Assembly: GCF_005377625.1 (NCBI RefSeq)
Contig: NZ_CP040098.1
Span: forward strand, 2,717,279-2,781,278
DNA from: Desulfoglaeba alkanexedens ALDC
Lineage (GTDB): Bacteria; Desulfobacterota; Syntrophobacteria; Syntrophobacterales; DSM-9756
DNA: 64,000 nt
Direction of reading: 5' to 3'
The notes under the pieces were generated by a model. That model worked only from the letters and a program-made list of their open reading frames with translations. It made no database searches and was not told the origin of the DNA. How positions within the stretch are numbered: position 1 is the stretch's first letter; every line of letters begins with the position of its first letter. A program made the position numbers and the translations under genes. This document shows, piece by piece, positions 25,516 to 40,889 of this stretch.

Positions 25516-26018
25516 AAATGGAACCATTGAAGCCATGCAGGGCGGCGGTGACCTGCTAAGTACAGTTCCCCAGAATACAGTGTTCATTGTGAGATTTTCC
25601 GCTTGTTCCCAAGCTCCAGCTTGGGAACACAAGTGTGCAGAAGCTCCAGCTTCGGTTCCCATGAGGCCGCGACCCATGCGAACCCGCTACAAAATCCATG
25701 GCAGAGAACCCAAACACCCCCTACTTCGTCACATAATGGTCCTCCAGGTGGAAATCGGAGGCCGCTGACCATGGCAGCCGAAGGAGTAGTCCGGGGGGCA
25801 CACCCCCCGAACAAAAGAACGTCCGTCCCCCAAAGAAGCAATCGATAAGGGCCTCCAAGGACATGGGCCTTAATCTGTGAGATCGCGTGTATACATAGAA
25901 CTATCATACATCAGATATCCTAGTGAAGTTACTTCGCTTTTATGCTATAGGATCTCCTGTCAGATCTTCACCCGGCAGGTGCACTGATGAAGATAATCGA
26001 AATGGAACAATCTTCGAA
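25516..26018. repeat. Repeat-rich spacer
   Basis: One GTTCCCAAGC-type palindrome lies at 25605-25628 with its GAAGCTCCAGCTTC companion. 25868-25990 is the inverted partner of the dispersed repeat at 3315-3438. No gene is seen. Confidence 0.6.
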
Positions 26019-26245
26019 GTGTGCAGATCTTTTGCTTCTTGTTCCCAAGCTCCAGATTGGGAACACAACTGTGCAGAAGCTCCAGCTTCGGTGAGCCCGT
26101 TCCCAAGCCAGAGATTGGGAACGAAGGGAAAGATCACTTCGAGATCCTGGCGAGCTCCCTAGAAAGACAGCGCGTTTTAGCTGTAGCAGGAGGGAAGCTG
26201 GAGCTTCCCGGGCAGGGCGTTCCCAAGCTGGAGCTAGGGAACGAG
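26019..26245. mobile_element. Truncated element D related to elements A and B
   Basis: The left end GTGTGCAGATCTTTT is a variant of the family terminus. It is followed by palindromes at 26041-26064, 26099-26122 and 26219-26242. 26025-26245 is an inverted copy of 10964-11188 of element A, including AGAAAGACAGCGCGTTTTAG. No right terminus or target duplication is found, so the right end is probably lost. Confidence 0.65.
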
Positions 26246-26379
26246 AGGAACCGAACTTCAGGGGCAGATCCTCGGCGCATTTGTCTACAAGATAACCGGT
26301 GGGGTCTTACAAAAACTCTAAGAGCAACTCATTGATTTGACTCCTACTGTGCCACTTTGGAGGCTGAGAAGCCTGAAAC

Positions 26380-26994: not shown

Positions 26995-27009
26995 TTGTGA
27001 TCATCAGGA

Positions 27010-27611
27010 AATGGACTTTAGTGCCGATTTCGCCTCTAAAAGAAAGCCTAAGAGACCACAGGGCCCCGCGCAACATTGACAAGAAATGCACTTGGCTTCA
27101 TCCGCACAAGTTCCACCCACCCGATAAGCCCTTAGCGCTTTCAGTCTTTCAGCAATGGCCGCACCCAAATTTCCCAAACCGACAATCGCCGCCGGTTTAC
27201 CATAGGACGTTTTTCCAACCGGAATGCCTAGCCGTCTCTGTTCAATAGAGTTTGCCTGGCCTGGTTATCGCGGGCCAGAGCCAACATCAGCAGCAAAACC
27301 CATTCGGTTACCGACACTGTATTTCCGGTCTGCTCGCTGGGAACGTTGGCCACCTCGATCCCCATTGTCCACGCCGCCTCAAGGTCTATACCTTCAAGAC
27401 CAACGCCGAATTGCTGGATCAAACGCAACCGCTTTCCACGTTTGAGCAACGGCGCATCGAGTGTTGACATCAACGGAATGGCCACTTCCGCCTCAGCAAG
27501 ATGCTCGCCGATCTCTGATCTGGGACAACACCAAATACGGTCATGGGGCAGGTGCTTTCGCAGAAGTCTGCGCGCATGTTCAAAGCTCGTATCACAGAAT
27601 AAAATTCTCAT
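27010..27611 (-). pseudogene. D-2-hydroxyacid dehydrogenase, frameshifted and deleted
   Basis: MRILFCDTSFEHARRLL, IQQFGVGLEGIDLEAAWTMG and VSVTEWVLLLMLALARDN are the N-terminal domain. In another frame GKPAAIVGLGNLGAAIAERL gives the NAD site. A third piece has FLVNVARGPVV. A deletion removes most of the NAD domain and the catalytic Glu/His region. It is inactive. Confidence 0.7.
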
Positions 27612-27692
27612 TGCATTTGAGTTCCAGGTTGCGCACCAGACTGCTTTCATCGCCGTGCGCCTTCCCAGTGGAGGGGCACGGCTCAGCCCGCT

Positions 27693-28124
27693 TCACCCTG
27701 GAGGCATAACCAGGGCTTCCCCCTCGGCCACCAGTTCCTGTTTCTGATTGAACCAGGTCAGCTTGAGGCGAACCCACCTTTTCTTTGCCAGTTTTTCCGA
27801 AACCTCGGCGATAGCCGTCACTGTATCTCCGATATAAACAGGGGCCCTGAACCTGCAGAACAATTCCAACGCCACCGTGCCCAGCCCAGGTAGCTTGGTT
27901 CCCAAAACCGGCGCGATCAAGCTTTGCGTTAACGGTCCATGCGCGACACGGGCGCCAAACTGCGTCTGCCGAGCATAGGCTTCGTTGACATGCATCGGGT
28001 TGAAATCCCCGCTGATGCCGGCAAACAGATAAACATCGGTTTCTGAAATCGTTTTACTGAATGAGGCTTTCTCACCGATTGTCAGTTCTTCATACTTTTT
28101 ACCTCTCTCATACTGCACGTGCAA
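27693..28124 (-). CDS. MaoC-family enoyl-CoA hydratase (PhaJ-like)
   Basis: 143 residues. The hotdog fold motif AGISGDFNPMHVNEAYARQT holds the catalytic Asp and His, followed by FGARVAHGPLTQSLIAPVLG. By family it hydrates 2-enoyl-CoA to (R)-3-hydroxyacyl-CoA. It is the last gene of the minus-strand catabolic operon. A second MaoC gene (36568-37026) shares the operon, so the two probably differ in substrate. Confidence 0.8.
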   Translation of the reverse strand: MHVQYERGKKYEELTIGEKASFSKTISETDVYLFAGISGDFNPMHVNEAYARQTQFGARVAHGPLTQSLIAPVLGTKLPGLGTVALELFCRFRAPVYIGDTVTAIAEVSEKLAKKRWVRLKLTWFNQKQELVAEGEALVMPPG

Positions 28125-28152
28125 CCCTCCCTTAAACCGCCCAACGTATCGC

Positions 28153-28368
28153 TCATGCCAGGATGATCAGTGTCTGTTGATCGGCGACACGATCCTCCGC
28201 CGCCACCAGAATCTCCTTTACGGTTCCACTCACTTGCGCACTGATCTGGTTTTCCATTTTCATGGATTCCAGAATGACCACATCGTCACCCTCACGCACT
28301 GTGTCGCCGACATTTACCAGGACCTTCACTATGACGCCGGGCATGGGCGCCAGGATTTCCTTCCTCAT
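28153..28368 (-). CDS. Free-standing biotin carboxyl carrier protein
   Basis: The 71-residue biotinyl domain has the attachment site ESMKMEN near 34-40, the usual EAMKMEN with Ser. Symmetry-related Gly residues (APMPGVIVKVLVNVGD, AQVSGTVKEILV) flank it. It would carry carboxyl groups for the carboxyltransferase encoded upstream (30530-32152). No biotin carboxylase gene is found in the window. Confidence 0.88.
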   Translation of the reverse strand: MRKEILAPMPGVIVKVLVNVGDTVREGDDVVILESMKMENQISAQVSGTVKEILVAAEDRVADQQTLIILA

Positions 28369-28440
28369 TGGTTGTCTCTCCCGTCTGCTAAGATTGTTTT
28401 CAGATTGCGGTCTTCTCTCTCGGCATCGTACAGCCGAAAG

Positions 28441-29598
28441 CTATACCTTTTTTCCAGCCAAGATGGCGGGATCGATCGTAACGGTCTCGGGCCAGTCCGC
28501 GGGGTAGCGCTGTCCCGGCTCCTCGCCAAGCCTCACCTTTCTCTCCCTGAGTCCTTTGCGCTTGAACTCCTCTCGTGGCTGCTTGGGAATTCTACCATTC
28601 AGGATGGCCTCGGAGCGCAGCCGCCGTCCGATCGTCTTTTCCCATTTGACGCCCAGAGCCAACACACGGTCGATATCGATGCCGGTATCGATCCCCATCT
28701 CATCCACCATCACCAGCATGTCTTCAAGGCTGACCAGCCCCACGACGTTCGGATCCCGGTAGTAATACTCCCCGGTGCCGCGCACTGGAATCCCGTCGAT
28801 GAAGTTTGCAGGCTGCCCGCCTATACCGCCCATCACTCCTTCATGAATCTCGACCCCGGCCTGCAGCGCGGCGAGGACATTCGCCAGACCCCATCCCCTG
28901 GTTACGTGAAAGTGTGCCACGTGCAGGTCCTTGTTGGGAATGGCATCCATTATCATTGAAAAATAGCGATAGACCTGATTGGGCGGCGCAGATCCGTCAT
29001 GATCGGCGTGCTCGATGTCATCCGCACCGATACTGAGCCATCTTTTGGTAAATTCCAGGGCATCCTCCAAGCGCGTTGGTCCGGAAATGGGACTGCCCCA
29101 TATGGTGCTCACGGTCCCGAAAACGCGAATCCCCACCTCATGGCATTTCTCTATGCAGCGCTTTGCTTCCCGCCAGTACTCGGGCAGCGTGGTCCCGGAA
29201 TTGGCGAAATGATGCTCTTCATCGGTAGAGACCATCATGCCGATGCGGTCCGGACCCCATCCCTCTTTTCTGGCGGCCACAGCCCGGTCCACTCCGGTCT
29301 CCCGAATGGCGACGGCGGTAAGCTCGATATCGTCAAAATTAATCCCTGCTCGCGACAGCCGTTTACTGTCGCGAACCCGTTTGAATAGCTGTTCAATGTC
29401 CCTGAACTGCGGCAAGCTGGCCGGGTTGGCGAAGTTGGAAATCTCCAGTCGCTTGAAGCCCGCCATGATCGCCTCTTCGACGTAGTACACCTTTGCATCG
29501 GTAGGGATGAAGTGCTCTTCATGTTGCAATCCTTCCCGAACCGATACGTCTGCAACGCGAATCCGCTTGGGGTAGTTCAGCTCAAATTGCCCATCCAT
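28441..29598 (-). CDS. HMG-CoA lyase-like DRE-TIM metallolyase
   Basis: 385 residues. VADVSVREGLQHEEHF (D17, R21, E22) and HVAHFH (H229, H231) give the DRE-TIM metal and catalytic sites. FIPTDAK and NVLAALQAG fit HMG-CoA lyases, which split 3-hydroxy-3-methylglutaryl-CoA to acetyl-CoA and acetoacetate. The loop that should hold the catalytic Cys (GLGGCPY in the family) reads GGIGGQP, so Cys is Gln (Q262). An extra C-terminal extension of about 60 residues is present. Gene context supports the leucine pathway, but the exact reaction is uncertain. Confidence 0.75.
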   Translation of the reverse strand: MDGQFELNYPKRIRVADVSVREGLQHEEHFIPTDAKVYYVEEAIMAGFKRLEISNFANPASLPQFRDIEQLFKRVRDSKRLSRAGINFDDIELTAVAIRETGVDRAVAARKEGWGPDRIGMMVSTDEEHHFANSGTTLPEYWREAKRCIEKCHEVGIRVFGTVSTIWGSPISGPTRLEDALEFTKRWLSIGADDIEHADHDGSAPPNQVYRYFSMIMDAIPNKDLHVAHFHVTRGWGLANVLAALQAGVEIHEGVMGGIGGQPANFIDGIPVRGTGEYYYRDPNVVGLVSLEDMLVMVDEMGIDTGIDIDRVLALGVKWEKTIGRRLRSEAILNGRIPKQPREEFKRKGLRERKVRLGEEPGQRYPADWPETVTIDPAILAGKKV

Positions 29599-29650
29599 CT
29601 GCTGACTCCTTTCATTTCGTTGGCGGTTAAGCCCCTTTTGGCTAACCCGA

Positions 29651-30448
29651 CTACTCTCCCTTGAAAACCGGCTTGCGTTTTTCGGCGAACGCCTGCAACG
29701 CTTCTAACCGGTCTCGGGTTGGTATGGTTATTTCGTATGCTTTTGATTCCAGCGATAGCGCCACGTCCAGACTGCATTCGGTGCCTTTGTTCAGGGCAAA
29801 TTTCGCCTGTTGCACAGCGATCGGACCGTTGCAGGTGATTTCCTCGGCCAGAGCTAAAGCCGCATCCATCAGCCGCTCCGGTGCAACGACCTGATTCACC
29901 AGGCCGATGCGGAGCGCGCTTTCGGCATCGATCCTCCTGGCCGTGTAGATCAGCTCTTTTGCCTTTGCCAGTCCAACGATACGCGGCAGCCGCTGAGTGC
30001 CCCCGCCTCCGGGGATCACCGCCAGGCTGGTCTCGGTCAACCCCATCAGAACATTGGAAGAAGCAATCCTTATGTCACAGGCGAGGGCAAGCTCTGTCCC
30101 GCCGCCGAAGGCGTAGCCGTTGAGTACAGCTATTACTGGAACTTTTGCATTTTCCACGGCGATCAAGGTCTTGCGAACCGTGGCGATAAAGCTTCGTACC
30201 TGCTGCTCGGTGAAGCTTCTCCTTTCGATAAGATCGGCGCCGGCCGAAAAGGAGGGTTTTTTCCCATCCGGAGGAGGCGCACCGGTAATAAGGACTACCC
30301 GCACCGAGGGATCGAAATTGACCTCCTCCATGATTTGCCCCAGCGTTGTAATCAGCTCAAAATTCATGCAGTTCATTGCCGCAGGTCTGTTCAATGTCAG
30401 GATCAGCTTGCCGTCTGCCGTCTTTTCTTGCAGGATGGTATCGGACAT
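29651..30448 (-). CDS. Methylglutaconyl-CoA hydratase-type enoyl-CoA hydratase
   Basis: 265 residues. The crotonase fold has the oxyanion region SAGADLIER, GGGTELALACDIRIAS and GLTETSLAVIPGGGGTQRLP with both catalytic Glu. The C-terminus TIPTRDRLEALQAFAEKRKP then VFKGE closely follows human AUH, the 3-methylglutaconyl-CoA hydratase of leucine breakdown. ATG at 30448 is preceded by GGGGAGGA. An upstream ATG at 30478 is less likely. Confidence 0.85.
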   Translation of the reverse strand: MSDTILQEKTADGKLILTLNRPAAMNCMNFELITTLGQIMEEVNFDPSVRVVLITGAPPPDGKKPSFSAGADLIERRSFTEQQVRSFIATVRKTLIAVENAKVPVIAVLNGYAFGGGTELALACDIRIASSNVLMGLTETSLAVIPGGGGTQRLPRIVGLAKAKELIYTARRIDAESALRIGLVNQVVAPERLMDAALALAEEITCNGPIAVQQAKFALNKGTECSLDVALSLESKAYEITIPTRDRLEALQAFAEKRKPVFKGE

Positions 30449-30529
30449 CAATAAATCCTCCCCTCGAATCCTGTTCATCTATATGGGGCCAGTACCCCTT
30501 GATTCGCCGGTGTCCGGTTCATCCAGAGG

Positions 30530-32152
30530 CTAGAACTTGAAGTTGCCGAAAGACGACTCTCCAATCGGCTTCAACAGGGAAACCTCGAATGCCGTTGCAA
30601 GGGTATCGCGGCAGTCCCTCAAGGGTATGGTGCCGTCATGGTAAAGGCGTGCCTCCGTGTAAAATGGATGGGCCTCCCTGGAGTATTTTTCCACCATCAT
30701 TTTTTCAAACTCCCGCAGTTCCGATTCATTCATCTCCCTGCCTTGTTTTCGGGCGTTCGCTCTTTCCAGGGAGGTCAGAATGTAGCCTGCCGTTCGCCCC
30801 GACATCACCGACGTGCGACCCCGCATGGTGTTGAATATGAAATGCGGATCGTAAGCCCTGCCGCACATGCCATAATTCGCGGCGCCGTGATCGGGGCCGA
30901 TGACCCACTGGATCTTGGGCACAGCGGCGCATGCCGCCGCTCTGACCATATCGGAGCCATACTTTCCAATGCCCGCGTACTCCTCCTGAGTCCCCACCAT
31001 GTAGCCCGGCGAGGCCTGGATGTAGAGAATGGGAATCCGCTGGGAGCAGCACCGGATGACCCATTCGGTCGCTTTTCTGGCCGCATCCACGAAGATCACA
31101 CCGATCCCGTTGGCGGCCACGATTCCAACCGGGATACCCTTCAGGTGGATCTTGCCGCAGACAATGTTGTCTGCACGACCCGGATTATACTTTTCCTTGT
31201 ATTCACTGAATTCGGAATCGTCCGCGATGCAGGCGATGATCTCGCGGACTTTCACGCCACGATAGGGATCTTTCGGAAGGACCCTGTAAATATGGTCGGC
31301 GTCAACCTTGGGAGGCATGGTGGGGCGCCTGTCTATGAAAAGTTTCTGCGGCGGATCGTAGCTCAGCAGCTCCCGAAGCTTTTCGATGCCTTCGTCCTGA
31401 GTATGGACAAAATGGTCGGCCCCGCCGGATATGGAGGTATGCACCTTGGCGCCGCCGAGCTCTTCCATGGTCACATCTTCGCCGATGGCGGACTTGACCA
31501 TCGGGGGGCCTCCCAAAAAAGAGTAGGCCAGCTTGTCGATCATGATCGACTCATCAGCCAGGTAAACCGTGTAGGCGCCTCCGGCAGTGTTGCCTCCGGT
31601 GCTCAAGGTGTATTGCTTGAGGCCCTTGGCGGACATCCGGCACATGTTGAAAAAAAAGCGGCCAAACTGACCCTGCCCCGGGAACACGCGATCCTGCATG
31701 GGCAGGAACCCCCCGGCCGAGTCGCCGATGTATATACAGGGCAGGCCGCATTGCTCGGCGATATTCTGTGCGCGCAAATGTTTCTTACAGCTGATGGGAT
31801 AGTAGGCGCCAGCCTTAACCCGGCTGTCGTTGGCAATAACCATTACCCAATTGCCGTGAACTTTCCCGATGCCGGTAACCAGCCCCGCCGAGGGAACGTC
31901 CATGGCCGTTTCATAGTTGATGCCGAACCCCGCTCCTCTGCTCAACTCAAGGAATTCGCTGTCCGGGTCGATAAGCTGCTTTACCAGCTCCCTGACCGGC
32001 TTTTTCCCCTGCTTTGCAAGGCGCTCGATCTGTTTTTGCCCCCCGGGGTTGTATGCCCTTTCCCACAGAGCATAAATCTGCCTCTCTTCATTCAACCAAT
32101 GGTTCATGTTATCTTCCTGTTCCCGACTGAAGACTGTTCCAACCTCATTCAT
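30530..32152 (-). CDS. Methylcrotonyl-CoA carboxylase-type carboxyltransferase subunit
   Basis: 540 residues. Both crotonase-like halves are complete. IYIGDSAGGFLPMQDRVFPG, FGRFFFNMCRMSAKG, GNTAGGAYTVYLADES, FLGGPPMVKSAIGEDVTMEE and LGGAKVH match the beta subunit of 3-methylcrotonyl-CoA carboxylase more closely than propionyl-CoA carboxylase. It transfers carboxyl from biotin to the acyl-CoA. ATG at 32152 follows GGAGGTGAGG. Biotin carboxylase is absent nearby. Confidence 0.85.
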   Translation of the reverse strand: MNEVGTVFSREQEDNMNHWLNEERQIYALWERAYNPGGQKQIERLAKQGKKPVRELVKQLIDPDSEFLELSRGAGFGINYETAMDVPSAGLVTGIGKVHGNWVMVIANDSRVKAGAYYPISCKKHLRAQNIAEQCGLPCIYIGDSAGGFLPMQDRVFPGQGQFGRFFFNMCRMSAKGLKQYTLSTGGNTAGGAYTVYLADESIMIDKLAYSFLGGPPMVKSAIGEDVTMEELGGAKVHTSISGGADHFVHTQDEGIEKLRELLSYDPPQKLFIDRRPTMPPKVDADHIYRVLPKDPYRGVKVREIIACIADDSEFSEYKEKYNPGRADNIVCGKIHLKGIPVGIVAANGIGVIFVDAARKATEWVIRCCSQRIPILYIQASPGYMVGTQEEYAGIGKYGSDMVRAAACAAVPKIQWVIGPDHGAANYGMCGRAYDPHFIFNTMRGRTSVMSGRTAGYILTSLERANARKQGREMNESELREFEKMMVEKYSREAHPFYTEARLYHDGTIPLRDCRDTLATAFEVSLLKPIGESSFGNFKF

Positions 32153-32299
32153 CCTCACCTCCATGATTGGATGCCTTGTGCAATACATACTTTTCGATCT
32201 GCACTAGATCGGCCGGTGAAGCACCTACCTTCGCCTGTTTCTGCCTGGTACATAGCCTTTTGCAAGAGGCTCTTTATTATCAAGGATTTCTAGCCTGGT

Positions 32300-32776
32300 T
32301 CAGGGAATCGGCTTAAAATGCTTTATGTCAAAAATATTGCCTGGCTTCTGCGGATTCCACTCTGCTCTTACCCTGATGCCGTTGTGTACATGTTTTCTAA
32401 CATCTTCGATTTTTTCATACTCAAAACCTCCTATCAGGTGAACAAAACCGCAGTCAGCGCCATCCAACCGGATATTGCCGCATACAAAGGGCGGTTTCAC
32501 AGGCATTCCGAAATACTCGTAGTTGACGAAAATCCACCCCTCAACTGTTCCTTCCTGTGAAAGCTCGACCCACTCGTTCATTTCTTCAAAGCACCTTGGG
32601 CAGAAGGCCCTGGCAGGAACCAGGACCCTGCCGCAGGCAGGGCACCTCGTGCCGAAGATTTTTTGCATGCTCAGCCCCTCAAAGAAGCGGTTCCATGTGG
32701 GGCCGACAGCCAGACTGTATTCTATTATGACCTCGTCCTCTATGATAGGGTTGCCCTTTTTGTCTGTTGTAAGCAT
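32300..32776 (-). CDS. DUF35 zinc-ribbon/OB-fold thiolase partner, copy 1
   Basis: 158 residues. The rubredoxin-like zinc ribbon has CPACGRVLVPARAFCPRC near 46-63. An OB-fold (EGWIFVNYEYFGMPVKPPFV, GADCGFVHLIGG) follows. DUF35 proteins bind thiolase-like enzymes, as BbsA does with BbsB and as in archaeal thiolase/HMG-CoA synthase complexes. Its pair, copy 2, is the next gene upstream. Confidence 0.85.
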   Translation of the reverse strand: MLTTDKKGNPIIEDEVIIEYSLAVGPTWNRFFEGLSMQKIFGTRCPACGRVLVPARAFCPRCFEEMNEWVELSQEGTVEGWIFVNYEYFGMPVKPPFVCGNIRLDGADCGFVHLIGGFEYEKIEDVRKHVHNGIRVRAEWNPQKPGNIFDIKHFKPIP

Positions 32777-32800
32777 TACCTGTCTCCTTGTTTGATGGAC

Positions 32801-33271
32801 TCAATCCAATATTTCAAAGTAGTTGATATCCAGCAGGTGTCCCTGTCGTTCTTCCTTCCAAACAGCCTGCACTCTTTGTCCTTTGGAAACAGCCCCTGAA
32901 ACATCCTTCTCCATTTCTAGGTCAAGCCCTGGTTTGTGTACCAGGTGCAGGAACCTGCAGTCTGTTCCGTCAAGCTGGATCAGGGCTGCAAGGAAGGGCG
33001 GCCTGACCGGCTGACCGTAGAATTCCCGCCTGGCACGAGTCCAGGATTCTATATGCCCCTGCTGGGAAACTTCCATCCAGTCCTTTATGTCCGTATTGCA
33101 AACCGGGCAGAATGACCTGGGGGGAACCCACCTTTTTCCGCATTCCGGGCACACGTTTCCGAGTATTTTTTTCTCCCTGAGCCCTTCGTAGAATTTGTAG
33201 AATGTCTGGCCTACAGCATACCTGTGGGGAAGCCAAACAATGGAATCGATTGTCTTGAAATGCTTCTCCAT
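32801..33271 (-). CDS. DUF35 zinc-ribbon/OB-fold thiolase partner, copy 2
   Basis: 156 residues. CPECGKRWVPPRSFCPVC is the zinc ribbon, and ESWTRARREFYGQPVRPPFL with IQLDGTDCRFLHLV is the OB-fold. ATG at 33271 is set by GAAAGGAG, 14 bases after the thiolase stop. A longer in-frame reading overlaps the thiolase gene and is rejected. It is a homologue of copy 1, so two thiolase/DUF35 pairs are likely. Confidence 0.85.
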   Translation of the reverse strand: MEKHFKTIDSIVWLPHRYAVGQTFYKFYEGLREKKILGNVCPECGKRWVPPRSFCPVCNTDIKDWMEVSQQGHIESWTRARREFYGQPVRPPFLAALIQLDGTDCRFLHLVHKPGLDLEMEKDVSGAVSKGQRVQAVWKEERQGHLLDINYFEILD

Positions 33272-33285
33272 TTTCTGTACTCCTT

Positions 33286-34452
33286 TCAATCCTCGCTGCC
33301 AAGGATCATTACCCCGTTGAACTGATCCGTTCCTCCCATGGCATGGCTCAGGGCCAATTTCGCGCCTTCTATCTGGTGCGCCCCGGCCTGGCCGGTCACC
33401 TGCAGCGCGGCCTCTGCCGTGCGTATAAGACCCGTGGCCCCTATGGGATTGGTGCATAGGGTGCCTCCTGAGGGGTCGCAGGGAAGCTCGCCGTCCCTGG
33501 CAAAAGTGCCTTTCAGAGTATAGTCAGCCGCCTGGCCGGGTTCACAGAATCCGAAGCATTCGTAGTATATGAGCTCCTGGTAGGTGAACGGGTTATAGAT
33601 TTCCGCCACATCCAGTTCCTTAAGGGGGTTCTTTATGCCTGCCATATCATAGGCTTGCCTGGCAGCCTGTATGGCGCATTGCCATACAACCTTGTCGCTG
33701 TCCCCAAACCAGTATTCGTCTCCGCTGTATCCAACGCCCTTGACCCACGCGGTTTTCCGGTTGAGCTTCTTGGCCATTTTTTCGGATGCAAACAAAACCG
33801 CACAGGCCCCGTCGGAATTAGGGCATATATCCCAGAGCCGTGTCGGGTATACAACAATCCTGGCGTTTTTAATCTCCTCCATTGTCAGCCGCTTTTTCAC
33901 ATGGGCATACGGATTGTCAAGCGCGTCCTTATGATGATCCATGGAAATTTTGGCTGCAGCTTCCCTGGCCTTTTCCTCGGAAATTCCATATCTGTAGGCC
34001 CACTGTTGCCCCTGCAAGGAAAATATTCCCGCTGCGCCTGAAATGAAATAGCGCTGGTAAAAAGGCTCAGCCACCGTGCTCATTGTAGCCTGACTGTCTC
34101 CTTCGTGCATTTTTTCCGAACCGACTACGAGAATAAGATCAGCCATTCCAGAGGCTATCCAGTAGTAGCCTGTAAACGCAAGTGATATTCCTGTGGAGCC
34201 GCAGGTCTCGGTTTTTAGAATCGGCTTGTTCACGGCCCTCAGGGCATCTGCGAAATAAAGATGCGTCAGGGCCACGCCTTCCATCATGGAAGGCATGGTT
34301 CCGTATACAACCCCGTCTATATCGGCTGGGTCTATGCCGATGTTTTCAAATGCCGCGGAAACCGCCTCCCGAATTAGATCAGGATAGGAGATTTCAGACC
34401 TGTTGCCGTGCTTGGTCTGACCGGATCCAACAATACCTACCTTAGCGGACAT
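33286..34452 (-). CDS. Thiolase family protein with catalytic Cys
   Basis: 388 residues of the SCP2/archaeal-type thiolase group. KTETCGSTG puts the nucleophile at Cys84. GGTLCTNPIGATG has Asn where most thiolases have the GHP His. SHAMGG near the end supplies another His. It would cleave or form a 3-oxoacyl-CoA together with a DUF35 protein. The paralogue upstream lacks the Cys. Spacing to its neighbours is tight, indicating one operon. Confidence 0.85.
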   Translation of the reverse strand: MSAKVGIVGSGQTKHGNRSEISYPDLIREAVSAAFENIGIDPADIDGVVYGTMPSMMEGVALTHLYFADALRAVNKPILKTETCGSTGISLAFTGYYWIASGMADLILVVGSEKMHEGDSQATMSTVAEPFYQRYFISGAAGIFSLQGQQWAYRYGISEEKAREAAAKISMDHHKDALDNPYAHVKKRLTMEEIKNARIVVYPTRLWDICPNSDGACAVLFASEKMAKKLNRKTAWVKGVGYSGDEYWFGDSDKVVWQCAIQAARQAYDMAGIKNPLKELDVAEIYNPFTYQELIYYECFGFCEPGQAADYTLKGTFARDGELPCDPSGGTLCTNPIGATGLIRTAEAALQVTGQAGAHQIEGAKLALSHAMGGTDQFNGVMILGSED

Positions 34453-34463
34453 TGTTTACCTCC

Positions 34464-35606
34464 TTAATTTCCAAGAATGGCTACAGCATGGCACTGACCC
34501 GCAAAGCCGTGGGTACCGTGAGCCAGGCCGGTGTTGACTTTCTTGTCCAGCTGCCTTTCTCCTGCCGCCCCTTTTATCTGAAGGACTACCTCAGCTAACC
34601 GGTAGAGACCTCTTGATACATAAGGATTCATGGATAGGACACCTCCCGAAGGGTTGACCGGCAGAGGGCCGTTAAAGTCCGTATACCCGCTTTCCAGAAG
34701 CCTTGCACCTTCGCCTCTGCCGCACAATCCCAGGCCTTCATACCAGAGAAGCTCCTGGAATGCGTACGGCTCACAGAGTTCCACCACATCCAGATCTTTC
34801 CTGGGATCAGATATGCCAGCCATTTTGTAGGCCGCCTTGGCCGCCTTTTCCAGCGTACCGTTCAGAAGATCCCTGTCCCCCAGATAAAACGTGTCCATCG
34901 CAGATCCGTATCCTTTGAACCAGACCGGCTTGCTCGTGAGCTTCTTGGCTGTATCTTCTTCAGCCAGGAGCAGCGCTATCATGCCTTCCGACTTCGGCGC
35001 GCATTCCATCTCCTTTAGAGGGTCCATTACAGGATCTGAATTCATTACGTCCTCTACAGACACTTTTTTTCTGCGATGGGCATAGGGATTGCTCAGCCCG
35101 TTGTTGAGATTTTTGGCTGCAACTTTCGCGCACTGCTCCTCTGTCACACCGTGGGCATCCATGTAAGCCCTCATCTGCAGGGCTGCAGCGTAGGTTTCAT
35201 TAAGACCCAACTGCCTCTGGTAGAAAGGGTCGGTGAAAAAGTGAGTAATCGTGTCGTTTTCTGGGTTTTCAGAACCCTTGCATACCCCGAGGACAAGGGC
35301 GGTATTGTAATGCCCGGAAAGTATACGCATGACTCCATAGTGAAAGGCAAACAGGGACTCAGCGTCTTGTCTTGAGCCGTTCTTTAAAAATGCCGCCCCT
35401 GAATCCCAGTAATACGCATTTGCACAAGATATTCCCCCGTGGAACACATCCGAGGAGGCACTCACTACGGTACCCACCTGGTTCCTTTTTAATCCCGCCT
35501 TTTCTATGACCTCCCTGCAGACCGAGTAGACCTGGGTCAGGTAGTTCTCCGGGGATTCAGCGCCGCAAGTCATTGCCACCTCAACTATGGCTACCTTTTT
35601 GTTCAT
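34464..35606 (-). CDS. Thiolase-like protein lacking the catalytic Cys
   Basis: 380 residues, homologous along its length to the next gene (AAKNLNNGLSNPYAHRRKKV, LDVVELCEPYAFQELLWYE, NPSGGVLSMNP). Aligning FLKNGSRQDAES with ILKTETCGSTGI puts Arg79 at the place of Cys84, so it cannot act as a normal thiolase. It may be a structural or regulatory partner of the active paralogue, or bind another acyl-CoA. Confidence 0.8.
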   Translation of the reverse strand: MNKKVAIVEVAMTCGAESPENYLTQVYSVCREVIEKAGLKRNQVGTVVSASSDVFHGGISCANAYYWDSGAAFLKNGSRQDAESLFAFHYGVMRILSGHYNTALVLGVCKGSENPENDTITHFFTDPFYQRQLGLNETYAAALQMRAYMDAHGVTEEQCAKVAAKNLNNGLSNPYAHRRKKVSVEDVMNSDPVMDPLKEMECAPKSEGMIALLLAEEDTAKKLTSKPVWFKGYGSAMDTFYLGDRDLLNGTLEKAAKAAYKMAGISDPRKDLDVVELCEPYAFQELLWYEGLGLCGRGEGARLLESGYTDFNGPLPVNPSGGVLSMNPYVSRGLYRLAEVVLQIKGAAGERQLDKKVNTGLAHGTHGFAGQCHAVAILGN

Positions 35607-35627
35607 AAATATTTCTCCTTCTTTACT

Positions 35628-36557
35628 TTAGTAAGTTACCTTATCGATCCCTTTTAGGCCAAGTATCTGCCTGGCATCATCCGGAGTAGCGATATCAATG
35701 CTCAATTCCTTAGCAATGCGCACAATTTTCTCCACTTGGTCCGCATTGCTCTTCGCCATTACCCCCTTGCCGGCATACAGGCTGTCTTCCATGCCCACCC
35801 TCACATTGCCTCCCATGCTAAGTGCAACGGCGCACATAGGAAGCTGATGTCGCCCGGCGGCGCACACCGACCAAATAAAGTCGTTGCCGAAATTCTGCCT
35901 GGCTGTTTCATACAAGAATATTAGGTTTTTTGCAGAAGGCGGTATACCGCCCATTATCCCCATTACAAATTGCAAGTAAACCGGTTTCTTAATAAGTCCT
36001 TTACTTACCAGGTAGGCGGCATTGTTGATCATGGCTGAATCATATATTTCCATTTCGGGTTTGGTGCCATTTTCCTCAAATGTTCGAGCAAATTCTTCCA
36101 TCGTCTTGAATGTGTTAGCAAAAATGAAATCTCTGGTCGATTCCAGATACGGCTTTTCCCAGTCATATTTCCATTCCCGTATCCCCATCCTATCGGGTAT
36201 GTCGAAAAGGGCGAAGTTCACGGAGCCGGCATTGAATGACGCCAGTTCGGGCTTAAAAGTAGGTATCGCCCTTAACCTTTCCTCGGCGGTCATCCCCAGA
36301 CCGGCTCCGGTAGTAGTATTTACAACCACATTGCATCTGCTTTTTATCTTGCGTAATACCTCGCCTATAACATTTAAATCTTGACTGGGCCGACCGGTCT
36401 TTGGATCACGCACATGGATATGAACCATTGCAGCCCCGGCTTCATAAGCCCTGACCGCATCATCGGCAATTTGATCCGGAGTAATGGGAAGATAGGGGCT
36501 CATACTCGGTGTATGAATAGAACCGGTAATTGCTGCTGTTACTATTGTTTTTGCCAT
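35628..36557 (-). CDS. Beta-keto acid cleavage enzyme (BKACE, DUF849)
   Basis: 309 residues. ITGSIHTPSMSPYLPITPDQ, AAMVHIHVRDPKTGRPS (the Zn-binding HxH), TTTGAG and GNVRVGMEDSLYAGKG (catalytic Glu) are typical of BKACE, the Kce-type family. Members condense a beta-keto acid with acetyl-CoA to give acetoacetate and a new acyl-CoA, or the reverse. Because the leucine pathway releases acetoacetate, this enzyme could use it instead of a CoA-transferase, none of which is seen here (inference). Confidence 0.85.
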   Translation of the reverse strand: MAKTIVTAAITGSIHTPSMSPYLPITPDQIADDAVRAYEAGAAMVHIHVRDPKTGRPSQDLNVIGEVLRKIKSRCNVVVNTTTGAGLGMTAEERLRAIPTFKPELASFNAGSVNFALFDIPDRMGIREWKYDWEKPYLESTRDFIFANTFKTMEEFARTFEENGTKPEMEIYDSAMINNAAYLVSKGLIKKPVYLQFVMGIMGGIPPSAKNLIFLYETARQNFGNDFIWSVCAAGRHQLPMCAVALSMGGNVRVGMEDSLYAGKGVMAKSNADQVEKIVRIAKELSIDIATPDDARQILGLKGIDKVTY

Positions 36558-36567
36558 AAATCACTCC

Positions 36568-37026
36568 TCATTTTTGCTTTTTGAGCATCATGATTTCAAA
36601 GTTGCCATCCATAACTACAATATCCTTTTGATTTAAAACAGCTAGATAAAATTCAACAATGCCCCTGTCCGGTTTACTGGTTTGGATTTTCTTCGCGACT
36701 CGAGCATGGACATGTATGGTATCTCCGAGCATGATTGGAGCCTTAAAATGCCAGTCTTTAATGCCCATGAAAGCCACGATCGACCCCTCCAATAGATTCA
36801 ACCTGACAAAGAGCCCGGAAGCTATGGAAAGTCCGCACATACCATGGGCGATTCTCCCACCGAATGGCTGTTTTGCAGCAAATTCAGCGTCAGTATGCAA
36901 CGGGTTGAAGTCACCACTAAAACAACTGAAGTTGACAATATCAGCCTCAGTCACCGTTCTTCCAAGTGTGTGAAAGTCTTGGCCTTCTCTAAATTCTTCA
37001 AAATACTTCCCCAAGACAATGGACAT
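36568..37026 (-). CDS. MaoC-family hydratase, second copy
   Basis: 152 residues. SCFSGDFNPLHTDAEFAAKQ carries the hydratase Asp/His, with FGGRIAHGMCGLSIASGLF and FKAPIMLGDTIHV following. It is similar in plan to 27693-28124 but clearly diverged. It sits 10 bases from the BKACE gene in the catabolic operon. Confidence 0.8.
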   Translation of the reverse strand: MSIVLGKYFEEFREGQDFHTLGRTVTEADIVNFSCFSGDFNPLHTDAEFAAKQPFGGRIAHGMCGLSIASGLFVRLNLLEGSIVAFMGIKDWHFKAPIMLGDTIHVHARVAKKIQTSKPDRGIVEFYLAVLNQKDIVVMDGNFEIMMLKKQK

Positions 37027-37048
37027 ATCACGCCCCCTTTTTTATTTC

Positions 37049-37345
37049 TTAACAGCCTTCCGTTTCAGCCAGATAGTCAACCATAACCTCATCAGCTCCG
37101 GCGCCTGTGGGAAGTATGTGCAAATCCATATAATATTGTGTTATTGGAGATTCGGCTATATATCCAATCCCGCCGAACAGCTGCAAACAGGCATCAGGTA
37201 TCTCTCTGGCCAATCGACTTGCATATGGGTTCTCCATTGTAATCTCTCTGGTAGCATACAAGCCTTTGTTCAAGAGCCTGGCTATATGATAGGTGAGTTG
37301 CCTGAGGGCGTGTATTTGAGTATTCATCTCCAACAGCCGGCGCGT
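37049..37345 (-). pseudogene. Acyl-CoA dehydrogenase, C-terminal relic
   Basis: MNTQIHALRQLTYHIARLLN, ASRLAREIPDACLQLFGGIG and YIAESPITQYYMDLHILPTG are the C-terminal helical bundle of an acyl-CoA dehydrogenase. The N-terminal and middle domains are missing. The upstream reading (to 37468) shows no homology. It lies between isovaleryl-CoA dehydrogenase and the MaoC gene, so a duplicate dehydrogenase was probably lost here. Confidence 0.6.
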
Positions 37346-37499
37346 TAGAGGGTGTTTTCTGATAAGCGCCGAATCCGCTAATGATTGCGGCGCAGGCCGG
37401 TCTGGAAGCATTCGGGGCTGGCTTTGGGGCTTAGTGAGGCTCAGTTGATGCAATACAAAACTCCGCACGAGGATAAACGCGTTATGACTGCAAGAGTCG

Positions 37500-38666
37500 C
37501 TAGGCCTGGCTCAAAATTTCACGAGCAATGACGAGTCTTCGGATCTCCGAGGTGCCGGCGCCGATGGTCATCAGCTTGGCATCCCGCATCAGGCGCTGCA
37601 CGGGGTATTCCAACATATAGCCGTAGCCGCCATGGATTTGAACCGCCTCAGAGGCTACCCAGTTACACATTTCAGCGGTAAACAGCAGGGCAGAGGCCGC
37701 CCTTTTGTGGATCGTGGTTCCCTTACCGCCGCGCTCGGCAGATTGGGCCGCGCGTGCCACCTGATAGCAGTAAAGACGCGCTGCCTCGATCTGGGTGTAC
37801 ATATCGGCCAGTTTGGCCTGAATCAGCTGAAAGCTGGCAATGGGACGACCAAATTGAACGCGTTCCTTGGCGTATTTTACGGAATGCTCGAAGGCGGCCT
37901 GTGCAAGACCCAAGGCAAGTCCAGAGAAGAACGCTCGTTCCATATCAAGACCAGACATCATTACATCGATGCCCAGGTGTTCCTTGCCCAGAAGGTTTTC
38001 CGCCGGCACCCTGCAATCTTCGAAGAACAACTCTCCCGTTGGTGAGCCGCGCATGCCCATCTTTTCTAACTTTCGCGCTACGGCAAAACCGGGAAAATCT
38101 CTTTCAACAATGAATGCGCTGATCCCCTTCGCTCCGCCCTGGGGATCGGTTTTTGCGTAGACGATCAGAGTATTGGCGATTGGCCCGTTGGTAATGAAGG
38201 TTTTGGATCCGTTCAATATGTACTCGTTACCCTTTTTAACGGCACGGGTCCTGATAGAAACAGCGTCGGAGCCGGCATCCGGCTCGGTGAGTGCCAGCGC
38301 TCCAATGTGTTCACCGGTGCATAGGGAGGGGAGGTATTTGCTGCGCTGTTCAGCCGTTCCATTACGATACAGATTGTGTGCACAGAGGTTGCTGTGGGCC
38401 CCATATGACAGAGAAACGGCCGGACTGACCCGCGCCAGCTCTTCGCCTGCAATGACCCCCGCCAGCAAATCGAACCCCGCTCCTCCGAATTCCTCAGGTA
38501 TGGTGATGCCCAGGATTCCAAGCCGGCCCATCTTGGCGAACAGATCCTCAGGCATTTCATCAGCGCGATCGATTTCCTCGGCAAGGGGTGCAATTTCATT
38601 GTCGGCAAACTTTCGTACGGATTCTCGCAACAAGTAATGCTCTTCTTCCATGAAGTTCAAATCCAT
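37500..38666 (-). CDS. Isovaleryl-CoA dehydrogenase
   Basis: 388 residues. SLSYGAHSNLCAHNLYRNGT, LTEPDAGSDAVS, MGMRGSPTGELFFEDC and HGGYGYMLEYPVQR are acyl-CoA dehydrogenase motifs. The usual catalytic Glu position reads IGAGTSEIRR (Gly), and GLDMER carries the Glu instead. That relocation marks isovaleryl-CoA dehydrogenases. It oxidises isovaleryl-CoA to 3-methylcrotonyl-CoA, passing electrons to ETF. As the first gene of the operon it defines the pathway's entry. Confidence 0.9.
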   Translation of the reverse strand: MDLNFMEEEHYLLRESVRKFADNEIAPLAEEIDRADEMPEDLFAKMGRLGILGITIPEEFGGAGFDLLAGVIAGEELARVSPAVSLSYGAHSNLCAHNLYRNGTAEQRSKYLPSLCTGEHIGALALTEPDAGSDAVSIRTRAVKKGNEYILNGSKTFITNGPIANTLIVYAKTDPQGGAKGISAFIVERDFPGFAVARKLEKMGMRGSPTGELFFEDCRVPAENLLGKEHLGIDVMMSGLDMERAFFSGLALGLAQAAFEHSVKYAKERVQFGRPIASFQLIQAKLADMYTQIEAARLYCYQVARAAQSAERGGKGTTIHKRAASALLFTAEMCNWVASEAVQIHGGYGYMLEYPVQRLMRDAKLMTIGAGTSEIRRLVIAREILSQA

Positions 38667-38734
38667 GCCGCTTCCTCCTCGGGCGGTTTAAAGTTATCGT
38701 CTTGGAGCGTATTCTAGAGCCGGTTTCACGGCTC

Positions 38735-38852
38735 TTTTGTAGGAGCCGGCTTGCCGACGGATTCCGATCACGGCCAAGGCGCCTCCTACAGGAACAAAGA
38801 GCGTCAGTGCCCGACTTTCATGAGTTTGTTTTTGGAAAAGCTGCTAGCACGT
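38735..38852 (+). repeat. REP-type repeat module, second copy
   Basis: TGTAGGAGCCGGCTTGCCGA ... GGCCAAGGCGCCTCCTACAG forms a long hairpin. GCCCGACTTTCATGAGTTTG and TTTTTGGAAAAGC follow, matching 23866-23973. It lies between the dehydrogenase start and the end of the regulator gene. Confidence 0.7.
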
Positions 38853-39075
38853 GAAGTGTAGTTCTTTGGAGCAAATGCTATGCCAGCGCTTGGAGAGGTG
38901 CGATGGACGCTGATTTAGAGGTCTCCCGGTAAGGAGCGAGGGGGGTGATGTGTCATTTTGAAACGTTTTGCCAAGGGCACACGAGCACATCGCCTGGATT
39001 TGTCGTTTGCCAAAAAAAACCCAAGACGGGTGTACCATCTTGGGACATGTTCCTTTCTGAGATGGTCGGACTCGG

Positions 39076-40881
39076 CTAAGAGGGCCAGGAGCCTGCCTGG
39101 CTGATCCTCCCCTGGGTCTCATATTCTCGAAGTCTGCGATAGAGCGACGAACGTGAAATACCCAACAGGGAAGCGGCTTTGCGCTTGTTTCCGCTGCAGA
39201 GTTGGAGGGTCTCTTCGATAGCCCTTTTTTCAATGCGTCGTATGGAACAATCCGCCAGGTCAGCAACCCGCTGCGATCTACCGGTGGCCCAGGCCTGGAT
39301 TTTGTACGGGAGATCGATAACCGAGATGGTCTGGTTCTTACATAGGCAACACGCTGACTCCAGCGCGTTCCTCAGCTCCCTCACATTTCCCGGCCAGGGA
39401 TAGCTGCTCAGAATCTCCAGCACGTTTTCATCAAGCCGTATTCCAGGTTTGCCCAAAAGCGATGAAAATTCCTGTAAGAATGCGTTTGCTAACATAGGTA
39501 CATCGCCTTCCCGCTCGCGAAGAGCCGGAAGGCTTAGTGCAACAACATCCAGCCTATAGAAAAGATCCTCTCGGAAAAGTCCTTTCCGCACCAATTGTGC
39601 AAGATCTCTATTCGTCGCCGCAATGATGCGCACATCGGCAAACAGCGTTTCAACTCCCCCTACCCGTTGGTACTCTCCCTCCTGCAAAATGCGAAGCAGC
39701 TTCGACTGCATTCCGATGCTCATGTCCCCCACCTCATCTAACAGCAGGGTGCCTCGGTCAGCCAATTCGAATTTACCGGGCTTTCCTCCCTTGCGGGCAC
39801 CACTGAAAGCACCCTCCTCATAGCCGAACAATTCCGATTCCAGCAGAGTTTCCGGAATTCCCGCGCAATTCAGCCGCACAAAAGGCGATGCTGAGCGATC
39901 GCTGGCGGTGTGGATGGCATGGGCAAACAGCTCTTTGCCGGTACCACTTTCTCCCGTAATCAACACCCTGACCGAAGATGAAGCGGCCCTCCTGGCTTTT
40001 TCGATGACCCGCTCAAGAGCCGGAGATTGACCGATGATATCGGCAAAGGTGAATGGGGTGCGGCTTGAATCAACCGCCGAGCGGGCGGTTTTCGTTCCGC
40101 TCTTGATTCTAAGTATTGGGAACCTCTGAAGGAATACTTCGGCATGTGACATATCATTGAAGACGCTTTTGCAGACGGCCCCCGAGAGGCTCCCGTCCCG
40201 GTAAAGCGGCGTCACTTCCACGGGGATGCTCTCGGCTTTTCCTCTTCTCGGAACAGCGGCGAACTCGGAATGTCCGGTGCTCGCCACCTTGTTGAGCAGA
40301 CATCCCCTAAGGACACTGTCGACATCCTTTCCCTCCAGCTCCTCCCGGGGCAATCCAATCCGGTCTGCCGATTTCTTGTTTACGTAAACCAATCGGCCCT
40401 CGACATCTGCAACCCCAAGCTCTTCAAAGGTCGTATCCAGGATATTTTCCAGAAGGTTGATGCGGTCCATTGCCTTCTGCAATTTACTGCTTAGCTCCAT
40501 TATCTCAGTTGTTTCCAGCCAAATCTCCAACACGCCCGCCGTTCTGCCGTGCCGGTAGACGGGAAAACTGCTCACTCGGATGGTAGCCGTTCTTATTTCC
40601 AACAGCAGATCATAGCGCGGCGCCCCCTTATTTAAGACGGCGTCCACGTGATTTTTCGGCAGATAGGGCACAATGCTGCTGCCAACCAGTTGTTGAGGGT
40701 CCTTGCCCAGGATTCTGGCTGCCGGATGATTAACCAGCCGAAACTTTCCCTCACAGTCAATCAGCAATACTCCCAGAGGTAATTCCATGAGATCTATGCC
40801 AAAGCAGCGTTCCGCAGTGTGCTTGACATAGTCGCTTAGATCCGCAAATTGAAGCTCTTCAGTATTGACCCCAGAAATCAT
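39076..40881 (-). CDS. PAS-domain sigma-54-dependent activator
   Basis: 601 residues. Two PAS-like sensor domains (GVLLIDCEGKFRLVNHPAAR; GVADVEGRLVYVNKKSADRI) precede an AAA+ domain with [14 protein letters not shown] (Ser in the sigma-54 loop) and LLLDEVGD. A Fis helix-turn-helix (NKRKAASLLGISRSSLYRRL) ends it. ATG at 40881 follows AAGGAGG; the ATG at 40884 is too close. The frame stays open upstream into an IS3 relic. It lies upstream of, and in line with, the catabolic operon, which it probably controls. Confidence 0.88.
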   Translation of the reverse strand: MISGVNTEELQFADLSDYVKHTAERCFGIDLMELPLGVLLIDCEGKFRLVNHPAARILGKDPQQLVGSSIVPYLPKNHVDAVLNKGAPRYDLLLEIRTATIRVSSFPVYRHGRTAGVLEIWLETTEIMELSSKLQKAMDRINLLENILDTTFEELGVADVEGRLVYVNKKSADRIGLPREELEGKDVDSVLRGCLLNKVASTGHSEFAAVPRRGKAESIPVEVTPLYRDGSLSGAVCKSVFNDMSHAEVFLQRFPILRIKSGTKTARSAVDSSRTPFTFADIIGQSPALERVIEKARRAASSSVRVLITGESGTGKELFAHAIHTASDRSASPFVRLNCAGIPETLLESELFGYEEGAFSGARKGGKPGKFELADRGTLLLDEVGDMSIGMQSKLLRILQEGEYQRVGGVETLFADVRIIAATNRDLAQLVRKGLFREDLFYRLDVVALSLPALREREGDVPMLANAFLQEFSSLLGKPGIRLDENVLEILSSYPWPGNVRELRNALESACCLCKNQTISVIDLPYKIQAWATGRSQRVADLADCSIRRIEKRAIEETLQLCSGNKRKAASLLGISRSSLYRRLREYETQGRISQAGSWPS

Positions 40882-40889
40882 CATGCCTC

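Follow-up and report, generated by a model that had tools for sequence, protein, structure and literature searches.

A mosaic gene row in Desulfoglaeba alkanexedens ALDC sets a probable thiolase-fold/DUF35 retro-aldolase beside leucine-type carboxylation genes

In steroid breakdown, side chains are known to be removed by a dehydrogenase, a MaoC hydratase and a DUF35-bound thiolase-fold aldolase. The benzoylsuccinyl-CoA thiolase BbsAB is also a DUF35-bound complex, and the beta-keto acid cleavage enzyme (BKACE) converts a beta-keto acid and acetyl-CoA to an acyl-CoA and acetoacetate. One account (PMC12329534) describes the steroid aldolase Sal as having Gly at the position of the thiolase Cys, a catalytic Tyr302 in the former HDCF motif and a DUF35 partner; it places Tyr first in the HDxF motif of both Ltp2 and Sal, and gives the second catalytic residue as Cys304 in Sal and Tyr344 in Ltp2. 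Here we describe a gene row with related parts in Desulfoglaeba alkanexedens ALDC, an organism that oxidizes n-alkanes of C6-C12 length, either with sulfate or in the syntrophic production of methane (PMC7180275) and whose genome is a single contig of 3,365,583 bases. The row occupies positions 27693-38666 of a 64,000-nt stretch of that contig (NZ_CP040098.1, positions 2,717,279 to 2,781,278; hereafter the window), and all of its named genes were confirmed there, every one on the minus strand. On comparative evidence, we conclude that this operon is a mosaic joining two separately inherited gene neighborhoods, and that its two thiolase-fold proteins and their DUF35 partners probably form a retro-aldolase.

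The row opens with an acyl-CoA dehydrogenase of the isovaleryl-CoA dehydrogenase (IVD) type (37500-38666), followed by a remnant that represents the C-terminal piece of a second acyl-CoA dehydrogenase (37049-37468; positions 45-147 of the 150 in PF00441 only), MaoC-type hydratase A (36568-37026; PF01575, 96.2 bits), BKACE (35628-36557; PF05853, 364.8 bits against a cut-off of 24.8), the thiolase-fold proteins T2 (34464-35606) and T1 (33286-34452), and the DUF35 proteins a (32801-33283) and b (32300-32776). Then come a carboxyltransferase (CT; 30530-32152), an enoyl-CoA hydratase family protein (ECH; 29651-30448) in the position it takes in Liu-type operons, a protein resembling 3-hydroxy-3-methylglutaryl-CoA (HMG-CoA) lyase (HMGL-like; 28441-29598), and MaoC-type hydratase B (27693-28121; PF01575, 79.7 bits). 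A Pfam scan confirmed the two MaoC proteins, BKACE, the two SCP2-type thiolase-fold proteins, the two DUF35 proteins (ChsH2-type), CT, ECH and the HMGL-like protein, with NCBIfam and locus comparison adding to the ECH assignment; the operon dehydrogenase was identified outside that scan, by NCBIfam and PDB matches. The original prediction, which saw leucine/isovalerate-type genes fused to a thiolase/DUF35/BKACE set, was borne out in this respect. Its tally of two thiolases, two DUF35 proteins, BKACE and two MaoC hydratases is right as to the genes but not as to thiolase identity, since the catalytic residues are gone; likewise, the kinds of gene expected of a leucine route are present, but that route is not the clear one it had named, given an HMGL-like protein that lacks HMG-CoA lyase residues and that, in 4 of the 18 loci fetched, has a canonical-type lyase in its gene cluster.

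Two kinds of neighborhood meet in this row. Module A comprises MaoC, BKACE, T2, T1 and the DUF35 proteins, elsewhere often with an IVD-type dehydrogenase; module B comprises carboxyltransferase, hydratase, HMGL-like protein and dehydrogenase, recurs separately, and has a second copy in the D. alkanexedens genome itself (locus L157). Because each module recurs apart from the other, and because the G+C content agrees, we take the operon to be a fusion of these two neighborhood kinds: G+C is 43-53% across the stretch that begins with the remnant and ends with DUF35 b, 56-57% in CT, ECH and the HMGL-like gene, and 54.8% in the operon dehydrogenase. Intergenic gaps measure 2-31 bp from the dehydrogenase through DUF35 b, and then 147, 81, 52 and 319 bp.

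When T2 was searched against 395 genomes of the phylum, 43 genomes gave matches at E ≤ 1e-70, and a close group (61-73% identity) occurred in nine other genomes. A T2-alignment scan of named genome contigs, which relies on two short peptide patterns and is therefore incomplete, returned 61 loci, including Syntrophaceae, Smithella sp. SCADC, Methanolliviera and Dehalococcoidia, with distant T2 proteins (48-49% identity) in Jordarchaeia and Freyarchaeota. Most of these loci belong to metagenome bins whose names are possibly wrong; bins named Syntrophaceae (L101) and Kiritimatiellae (L099) share an identical dehydrogenase. Neighborhoods were counted in the 57 loci with a T2 at least 55% identical (four of the 61 fell below 55% and were excluded), and positive counts are lower bounds, as many contigs end nearby. 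T1 lay within 3.5 kb of T2 in 55 of the 57 loci, and 54 loci had DUF35 b (at least 40% identity) no more than 6 kb away. MaoC A (at least 35%) was present inside the same 6-kb limit in 26 loci; the count was likewise 26 for a dehydrogenase sharing 50% identity or more with that of the operon inside 4 kb, and 11 for BKACE (at least 50%) inside 8 kb. Module A is thus shared by syntrophs and other anaerobes, and a carboxyltransferase or HMGL-like gene (at least 40%) lay within 10 kb of T2 in none of the 57. Clustering placed a CoA-transferase group in 18 of the 61 loci, and ten loci had a protein at >45% identity to the copy in L092, which is of the acetyl-CoA hydrolase/transferase type (PF13336). 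Within the class, 2 of 55 genomes, the D. alkanexedens genome included, had a match at E ≤ 1e-40, and none of the seven other genomes of the family did; because of this rarity, module A was probably acquired.

Module B was examined through its HMGL-like family, which was present in 97 of the 395 genomes at E ≤ 1e-60; 18 loci around HMGL-like genes were fetched. L157 and the locus of a family member (L160) have the order dehydrogenase-ECH-CT-HMGL, and the 20 kb around them gave no match to T1, T2 or BKACE. Genomes G284 and G217 carry CT-ECH-HMGL-dehydrogenase, the first three at 76-85% identity, and G406 carries BKACE-dehydrogenase-CT-ECH-HMGL at 62-80% identity, with no T1 or T2 match in the 19 kb fetched.

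Some loci of the T2 scan are worth recording in their own right. Methanolliviera (L085), Smithella SCADC (L097) and Jordarchaeia/Freyarchaeota (L103-L105), again mostly metagenome bins, carry the T2/T1/DUF35 set or a distant version; they are archaea and syntrophs that their names or the literature connect with alkane degradation. In L050, L055 and their relatives, each row contains two T1/T2/DUF35 sets that differ from one another, together with a BKACE that is more distant, and L050 has a paired class I CoA-transferase (PF01144) between its two sets.

Both thiolase-fold proteins are altered at residues on which thiolases depend. Ungapped alignments of the T1 nucleophile region with solved SCP2 thiolase (6hsj, 6hrv), BbsB (7pxp) and acetyl-CoA acetyltransferase (7yvy) place Gly85 at the catalytic Cys, and Cys84 falls one residue ahead of the canonical nucleophile position. 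In profile alignments, Tyr286 (of Tyr286-Asn-Pro-Phe) replaces the His of the HDxF motif and Asn335 that of the GHP motif. C84, G85, Y286, N287, P288, F289 and N335 were invariant in all 62 T1 rows, which were drawn from the window, the scan loci and L046-L048 at 45% identity or more and 90% coverage. T2, as identified by Pfam and alignments, had no Cys at the nucleophile position in any of 14 rows, nor in any of 60 rows, and its HDxF position reads (C/T/S)EPY in most rows. With the catalytic Cys and both His gone in T1 and the Cys gone in T2, we rejected the possibility that these are ordinary thiolases, a role that their sequences make unlikely. T1 instead matches Sal-type aldolases at two points, the Gly at the Cys position and the Tyr at the head of HDxF, in 62 of 62 rows, and both DUF35 proteins, which were assigned by Pfam as zinc ribbon plus OB fold, carry C-x2-C-x10-C-x2-C in their translations, so that each has the zinc ribbon looked for in the partner of a DUF35 aldolase. 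Because T1 shares the Gly and Tyr of Sal and the DUF35 ribbons are present, T1/T2/DUF35 is a probable retro-aldolase. Neighborhood and family membership suggest that T1, T2 and DUF35 form one complex.

The operon dehydrogenase has isovaleryl-CoA dehydrogenases as its five best solved relatives. It carries the motifs SYGAHSNLC, GLDMER and GAGTSE, and so has the IVD signature of a Glu in GLDxER and GAG in place of the Glu of other dehydrogenases. Among 44 dehydrogenase rows compared, 20 were module A proteins of the GLDxER kind; all 20 had S-x-G-A-H-x-N-L-C, and 18 had GAGTSE, the others being one GGGTSE and one with undetermined bases. Another kind, with GLNTER or GLNSER and in most cases GGGTSE or GGGTDE, accounted for 16 of the 44 rows. 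The Dehalococcoidia dehydrogenases of L084 and L091 read VYGAHGLLC and GAGTTE and are oriented opposite to T2. In the tree, a starred group (97/92) united the 20 GLDxER module A dehydrogenases with those of G406, G284 and G217, and the operon dehydrogenase fell outside it; this gene could belong to either half of the row.

Among solved structures, the best match of CT, at 430 bits, was a chain that bears the name propionyl-CoA carboxylase beta; methylcrotonyl-CoA carboxylase (MCC) beta chains came next (426 and 418 bits); geranyl-CoA carboxylase (GCC) beta was ninth of 42 matches, at 297 bits. The geranyl-CoA carboxylase paper (PMC4673880) gives a Phe/Gly rule that separates MCC from GCC. By a count made by eye in an ungapped region, Phe163 of CT stands opposite residue 191 in the human chain, although its match to the Phe191 of the paper is uncertain. 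The HMGL-like protein scored 150.9 bits against an NCBIfam HMG-CoA lyase cut-off of 246, and all six HMGL-like rows, set against two canonical lyases, had Gln for the catalytic Cys (GGxGGCP), Leu for the catalytic Asn (GNxATED) and an insertion. On the score and the lost Cys and Asn, we rejected a plain HMG-CoA lyase. In 4 of the 18 HMGL-like loci (L149, L150, L155 and L156), the same cluster holds a lyase that shares 40-100% identity with the canonical lyase found in L149, where an opposite-strand gene intervenes; the L149 copy, the only one so checked, scored 377.9 bits with NCBIfam. In four others (L151-L154), an acetoacetyl-CoA synthetase directly follows the HMGL-like gene (953.2 bits for the checked copy of L151), and because of this the HMGL-like protein may still yield acetoacetate or a similar acid. 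The family is also a caution that some proteins of this phylum may have been misnamed "HMG-CoA lyase".

BKACE was judged in the light of the acetoacetate enzymes of the genome. The original prediction had reasoned that, with no acetoacetate CoA-transferase, BKACE would re-use acetoacetate by acyl exchange. Its premise holds for class I CoA-transferases (PF01144), which have no match in the whole genome, but three PF13336-type transferases are encoded elsewhere. Its conclusion is not supported, as an acetoacetyl-CoA synthetase is present in the same genome (1025652-1027586; 860.8 bits against a cut-off of 520.9, and 861.2 on the protein) and also in G426 and G406, which have a close BKACE. At E ≤ 1e-150, the synthetase was found in five of ten module-A genomes, including all three in which a close BKACE was seen in module A or B loci (D. 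alkanexedens [G000], G426 and G406, to which the whole-genome BKACE search was limited); in G406 it lies inside the module A row, one gene away from DUF35. BKACE and the synthetase thus appear to co-occur and not to replace each other, which is consistent with BKACE making acetoacetate. Because the D. alkanexedens genome encodes both this synthetase and a canonical HMG-CoA lyase (3312611-3313492; 318.2 bits), there is no need for BKACE to remove acetoacetate. Among the NCBIfam families listed for the operon proteins, only NF053538 (3,5-dioxohexanoate:acetyl-CoA acetone transferase) was at or above its cut-off, with BKACE at 437.7 bits against 430; three BKACE relatives beside modules A or B fell short, at 428.7, 423.9 and 414.3.

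We tentatively propose, with somewhat less than even confidence, that the operon joins two branches leading from one acyl-CoA, most likely isovaleryl-CoA or another 3-methyl acyl-CoA, so that an aldolytic branch runs beside a carboxylating one. Judging from family membership, the IVD-type dehydrogenase would carry out a shared first step to the 2-enoyl-CoA, which would be 3-methylcrotonyl-CoA if the substrate is isovaleryl-CoA. On the aldolytic branch, a MaoC hydratase would form a tertiary 3-hydroxyacyl-CoA that cannot be oxidized, and T1/T2/DUF35 would cut it in the retro-aldol manner of Ltp2 and Sal into a methyl ketone (acetone) and acetyl-CoA. On the other branch, by analogy with the Liu pathway, CT, the hydratase and a lyase step would give acetoacetate and acetyl-CoA, with the last step performed by the HMGL-like protein or by the canonical lyase encoded elsewhere, and the genome's acetoacetyl-CoA synthetase, which lies outside the operon, would then activate the acetoacetate. 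BKACE would most likely act in its known direction, on some beta-keto acid. We infer the aldolase chemistry, the isovaleryl-type substrate and the role of BKACE from these likenesses.

Several observations weigh against this two-branch proposal. The best solved match of T1, the uncharacterized 4yzo, aligns with a one-residue shift at the nucleophile region and itself lacks a Cys there; the invariant Cys84 might be the T1 nucleophile, and the position of Sal Cys304 is Pro288 in T1. BKACE has no clear place in the pathway. The operon holds no biotin carboxylase or MCC alpha partner, and the sole Biotin_carb_C match of the complete genome (C1:280202-280522, in a 480-aa frame) is distant from both CT genes, although it may be shared. 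None of the listed NCBIfam dehydrogenase models reaches its cut-off for the operon dehydrogenase, the best being acryloyl-CoA reductase (434.7 against 640), and the tree groups this protein weakly (90/80, unstarred) with the module B copies of L157 and L160, while its G+C content is intermediate between those of the two halves. The sole module A dehydrogenase of L099, L101, L053 and L089 is of the other kind (GLNTER), and because many module A rows have both dehydrogenase kinds together with a CoA-transferase, the module A substrate may be larger than isovaleryl-type. Acetone, finally, has no acetone-carboxylase-type outlet because the D. alkanexedens genome has no match to Hydantoinase_B (ketone-carboxylase type), the only acetone route searched for. 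Hydantoinase_B was present in three of the ten module-A genomes (G426, G372 and G146). Those of G426 and G372 stand amid apparent molybdenum-hydroxylase-type genes, as judged by eye from frame starts, and that of G146 lies about 1 kb from an opposite-strand acetoacetyl-CoA synthetase, an arrangement that would fit acetone carboxylation. As a candidate acetone sink, a ketone carboxylase was not accepted, and none of the three was counted as a proven acetone carboxylase.

Two other readings differ chiefly in what the module B genes and BKACE do. Longer 3-methyl-branched acyl-CoAs (isoprenoid-like or from branched fatty acids) could be carboxylated, hydrated and cleaved by the HMGL-like protein to R-CO-CH2-COO-, which BKACE would convert to R-CO-CoA and acetoacetate, while module A would yield a methyl ketone. 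This reading would let BKACE do useful work in the direction known for it, and it accords with a non-canonical HMGL-like protein that clusters with a canonical-type lyase in four of the 18 loci, with the contiguous BKACE-IVD-CT-ECH-HMGL genes of G406, with the two dehydrogenase kinds in many module A rows, and with the separate dehydrogenase-ECH-CT-HMGL set in the genome, which leaves the operon free for another substrate. We nonetheless hold it to be rather unlikely, as CT is far closer to MCC beta than to GCC beta (426 vs. 297 bits) and, as far as an uncertain match of residue numbering allows, keeps Phe in the region that distinguishes the two, and as the operon dehydrogenase carries IVD-type motifs. 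In the acetoacetate exchange of the original prediction, isovaleryl-CoA would be degraded by the Liu route and BKACE would end it through an exchange between acetoacetate and an acyl-CoA, so that acetyl-CoA is released with no CoA-transferase involved. The absence of class I CoA-transferases from the genome speaks for it, as do the G406 BKACE directly before IVD-CT-ECH-HMGL, with no T1/T2 match in 19 kb, and the synthetase after the HMGL-like gene in four of 18 loci, a sign that acetoacetate or a similar acid is the product there. Such an exchange would leave another free beta-keto acid and bring no net gain, however; with an acetoacetyl-CoA synthetase far above its cut-off, the occurrence of BKACE and synthetase in the same genomes, and a 3,5-dioxohexanoate label that BKACE barely reaches and three relatives miss, we consider it very improbable.

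T1/T2/DUF35 could alternatively be an unusual thiolase or condensing enzyme that works through Cys84 and is no aldolase. All 62 T1 rows keep Cys84, and BbsB and archaeal acetoacetyl-CoA thiolase, both described as DUF35-bound in PMC12329534, share the fold, but both catalytic His positions are lost (Tyr286 and Asn335) and in the ungapped alignments the nucleophile position is occupied by Gly85 and not by Cys84, so that such an enzyme appears unlikely. Decay or chance could also have brought two acquired sets side by side with no joint pathway. The remnants of a dehydrogenase and a 2-hydroxyacid dehydrogenase, and the 147-bp gap and G+C step at the DUF35b/CT joint, are what such a junction might leave; yet the other frames are open over most of the family length, their order is colinear and a promoter-like site stands in front, and we give this explanation very little credence. 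It is also conceivable, though distinctly improbable in our estimate, that module A is a carboxylation-free aldolytic isovalerate route, with T1/T2/DUF35 as a heteromeric enzyme, and that it is reversible in Desulfoglaeba as an acetone-carboxylating cycle. Forward, isovaleryl-CoA could pass through 3-hydroxyisovaleryl-CoA to acetone and acetyl-CoA in syntrophs, alkane degraders and some archaea; in reverse, acetone and acetyl-CoA could give 3-hydroxyisovaleryl-CoA and 3-methylcrotonyl-CoA, and carboxylation and cleavage could then give acetoacetate and acetyl-CoA. If reversed, the cycle would carboxylate acetone with acetyl-CoA as the carrier. Smithella-type propionate dismutation was set aside: one Smithella locus (L097) has the triad, but an IVD-type dehydrogenase and a sulfate-reducing alkane oxidizer do not fit it.

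The gene row appears to have a control region of its own. A terminator-like hairpin (39020-39044, minus strand; 10 pairs and a T run) separates the operon promoter from a gene for a sigma-54-dependent activator upstream (39076-41049, minus strand; PAS, AAA+ and Fis-type HTH domains, from PF00158 at 231 bits, PF02954 and PAS matches), and its stem is longer than that of any other of the 30 terminator-like sites found in 27000-41100, where shuffles predict 14.6. The sigma-54 promoter-like site TGGCATAGCATTTGCT (38870-38885, minus strand), which sits inside the 409-bp gap ahead of the first operon gene, is the sole perfect match to TGGCAY-N5-TTGCW in the 64 kb (shuffles gave a mean of 0.13, and at least one in 12 of 100). 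Because of the sigma-54-type site, the hairpin and the upstream activator gene, the row 27693-38666 is probably one sigma-54-type regulated unit. REP-like GCCGGCTCCTACA(A/G) sites with at most two mismatches lie at 38737-38750, 23869-23882 and 49849-49862 (0.54 expected; 2 of 100 shuffles reach three), the first of them in the operon leader, downstream of the sigma-54 site and ahead of the initial start codon.

Downstream of the operon, a fragment of a D-2-hydroxyacid dehydrogenase gene (27228-27650, minus strand) is 38% identical to a counterpart that stands as a full gene beside module B in L144, a hint at the origin of that half. Farther on, short frames on both strands at 25584-26335 share the peptide PKLELGN, which suggests a small repeated element. 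The complete genome carries at least two MCC-type carboxyltransferase genes but has a single match to the biotin carboxylase C-domain. It also has three frames of 837 aa for PFL-like glycyl radical enzymes, at G000:C1:2930949-2932820, 2936398-2938266 and 1986194-1988065 (L178); the first two form a tandem in which each follows a gene that looks by eye like an activase, and no NCBIfam model reached its cut-off for these two. The genome paper names two alkylsuccinate synthase clusters, with assA1 and assA2 (PMC7180275).

If the aldolase reading of T1/T2/DUF35 is true, branched acids would be split without biotin-dependent carboxylation, and acetone would be a metabolite to seek in such cultures. 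Among open-license PMC papers, outside which most subscription journals lie, we found no published account of the proposed isovalerate/acetone/DUF35-IVD route. The kinds of part known from steroid side-chain removal, here with a pair of thiolase-fold proteins that differ from each other, adjoin a dehydrogenase of the isovaleryl-CoA type in anaerobes that include syntrophs and alkane degraders.

Compared with the Liu-type pathway of IVD, MCC, methylglutaconyl-CoA hydratase and HMG-CoA lyase, the operon shares an IVD-type dehydrogenase, an MCC-beta-like CT and a hydratase, and a second set of this type, with no thiolase-fold genes, exists in the same genome; unlike that pathway, it has no MCC alpha, its HMGL-like protein lacks the catalytic Cys and Asn, and it is fused to MaoC, T2, T1, DUF35 and BKACE. 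BbsAB and the archaeal thiolase/HMG-CoA synthase/DUF35 complex resemble it in the thiolase fold and the DUF35 partner, whereas T1 has lost the catalytic Cys and both His and T2 has no Cys. The DUF35-bound steroid side-chain aldolases Ltp2-ChsH2 and Sal-Shy have the same combination of dehydrogenase, MaoC, DUF35 and thiolase-fold protein. Unlike those systems, the operon has two dissimilar thiolase-fold proteins and a DUF35 that is separate from MaoC; its T1, unlike Sal, has Pro for Cys304, and its IVD-type dehydrogenase suggests a small substrate.

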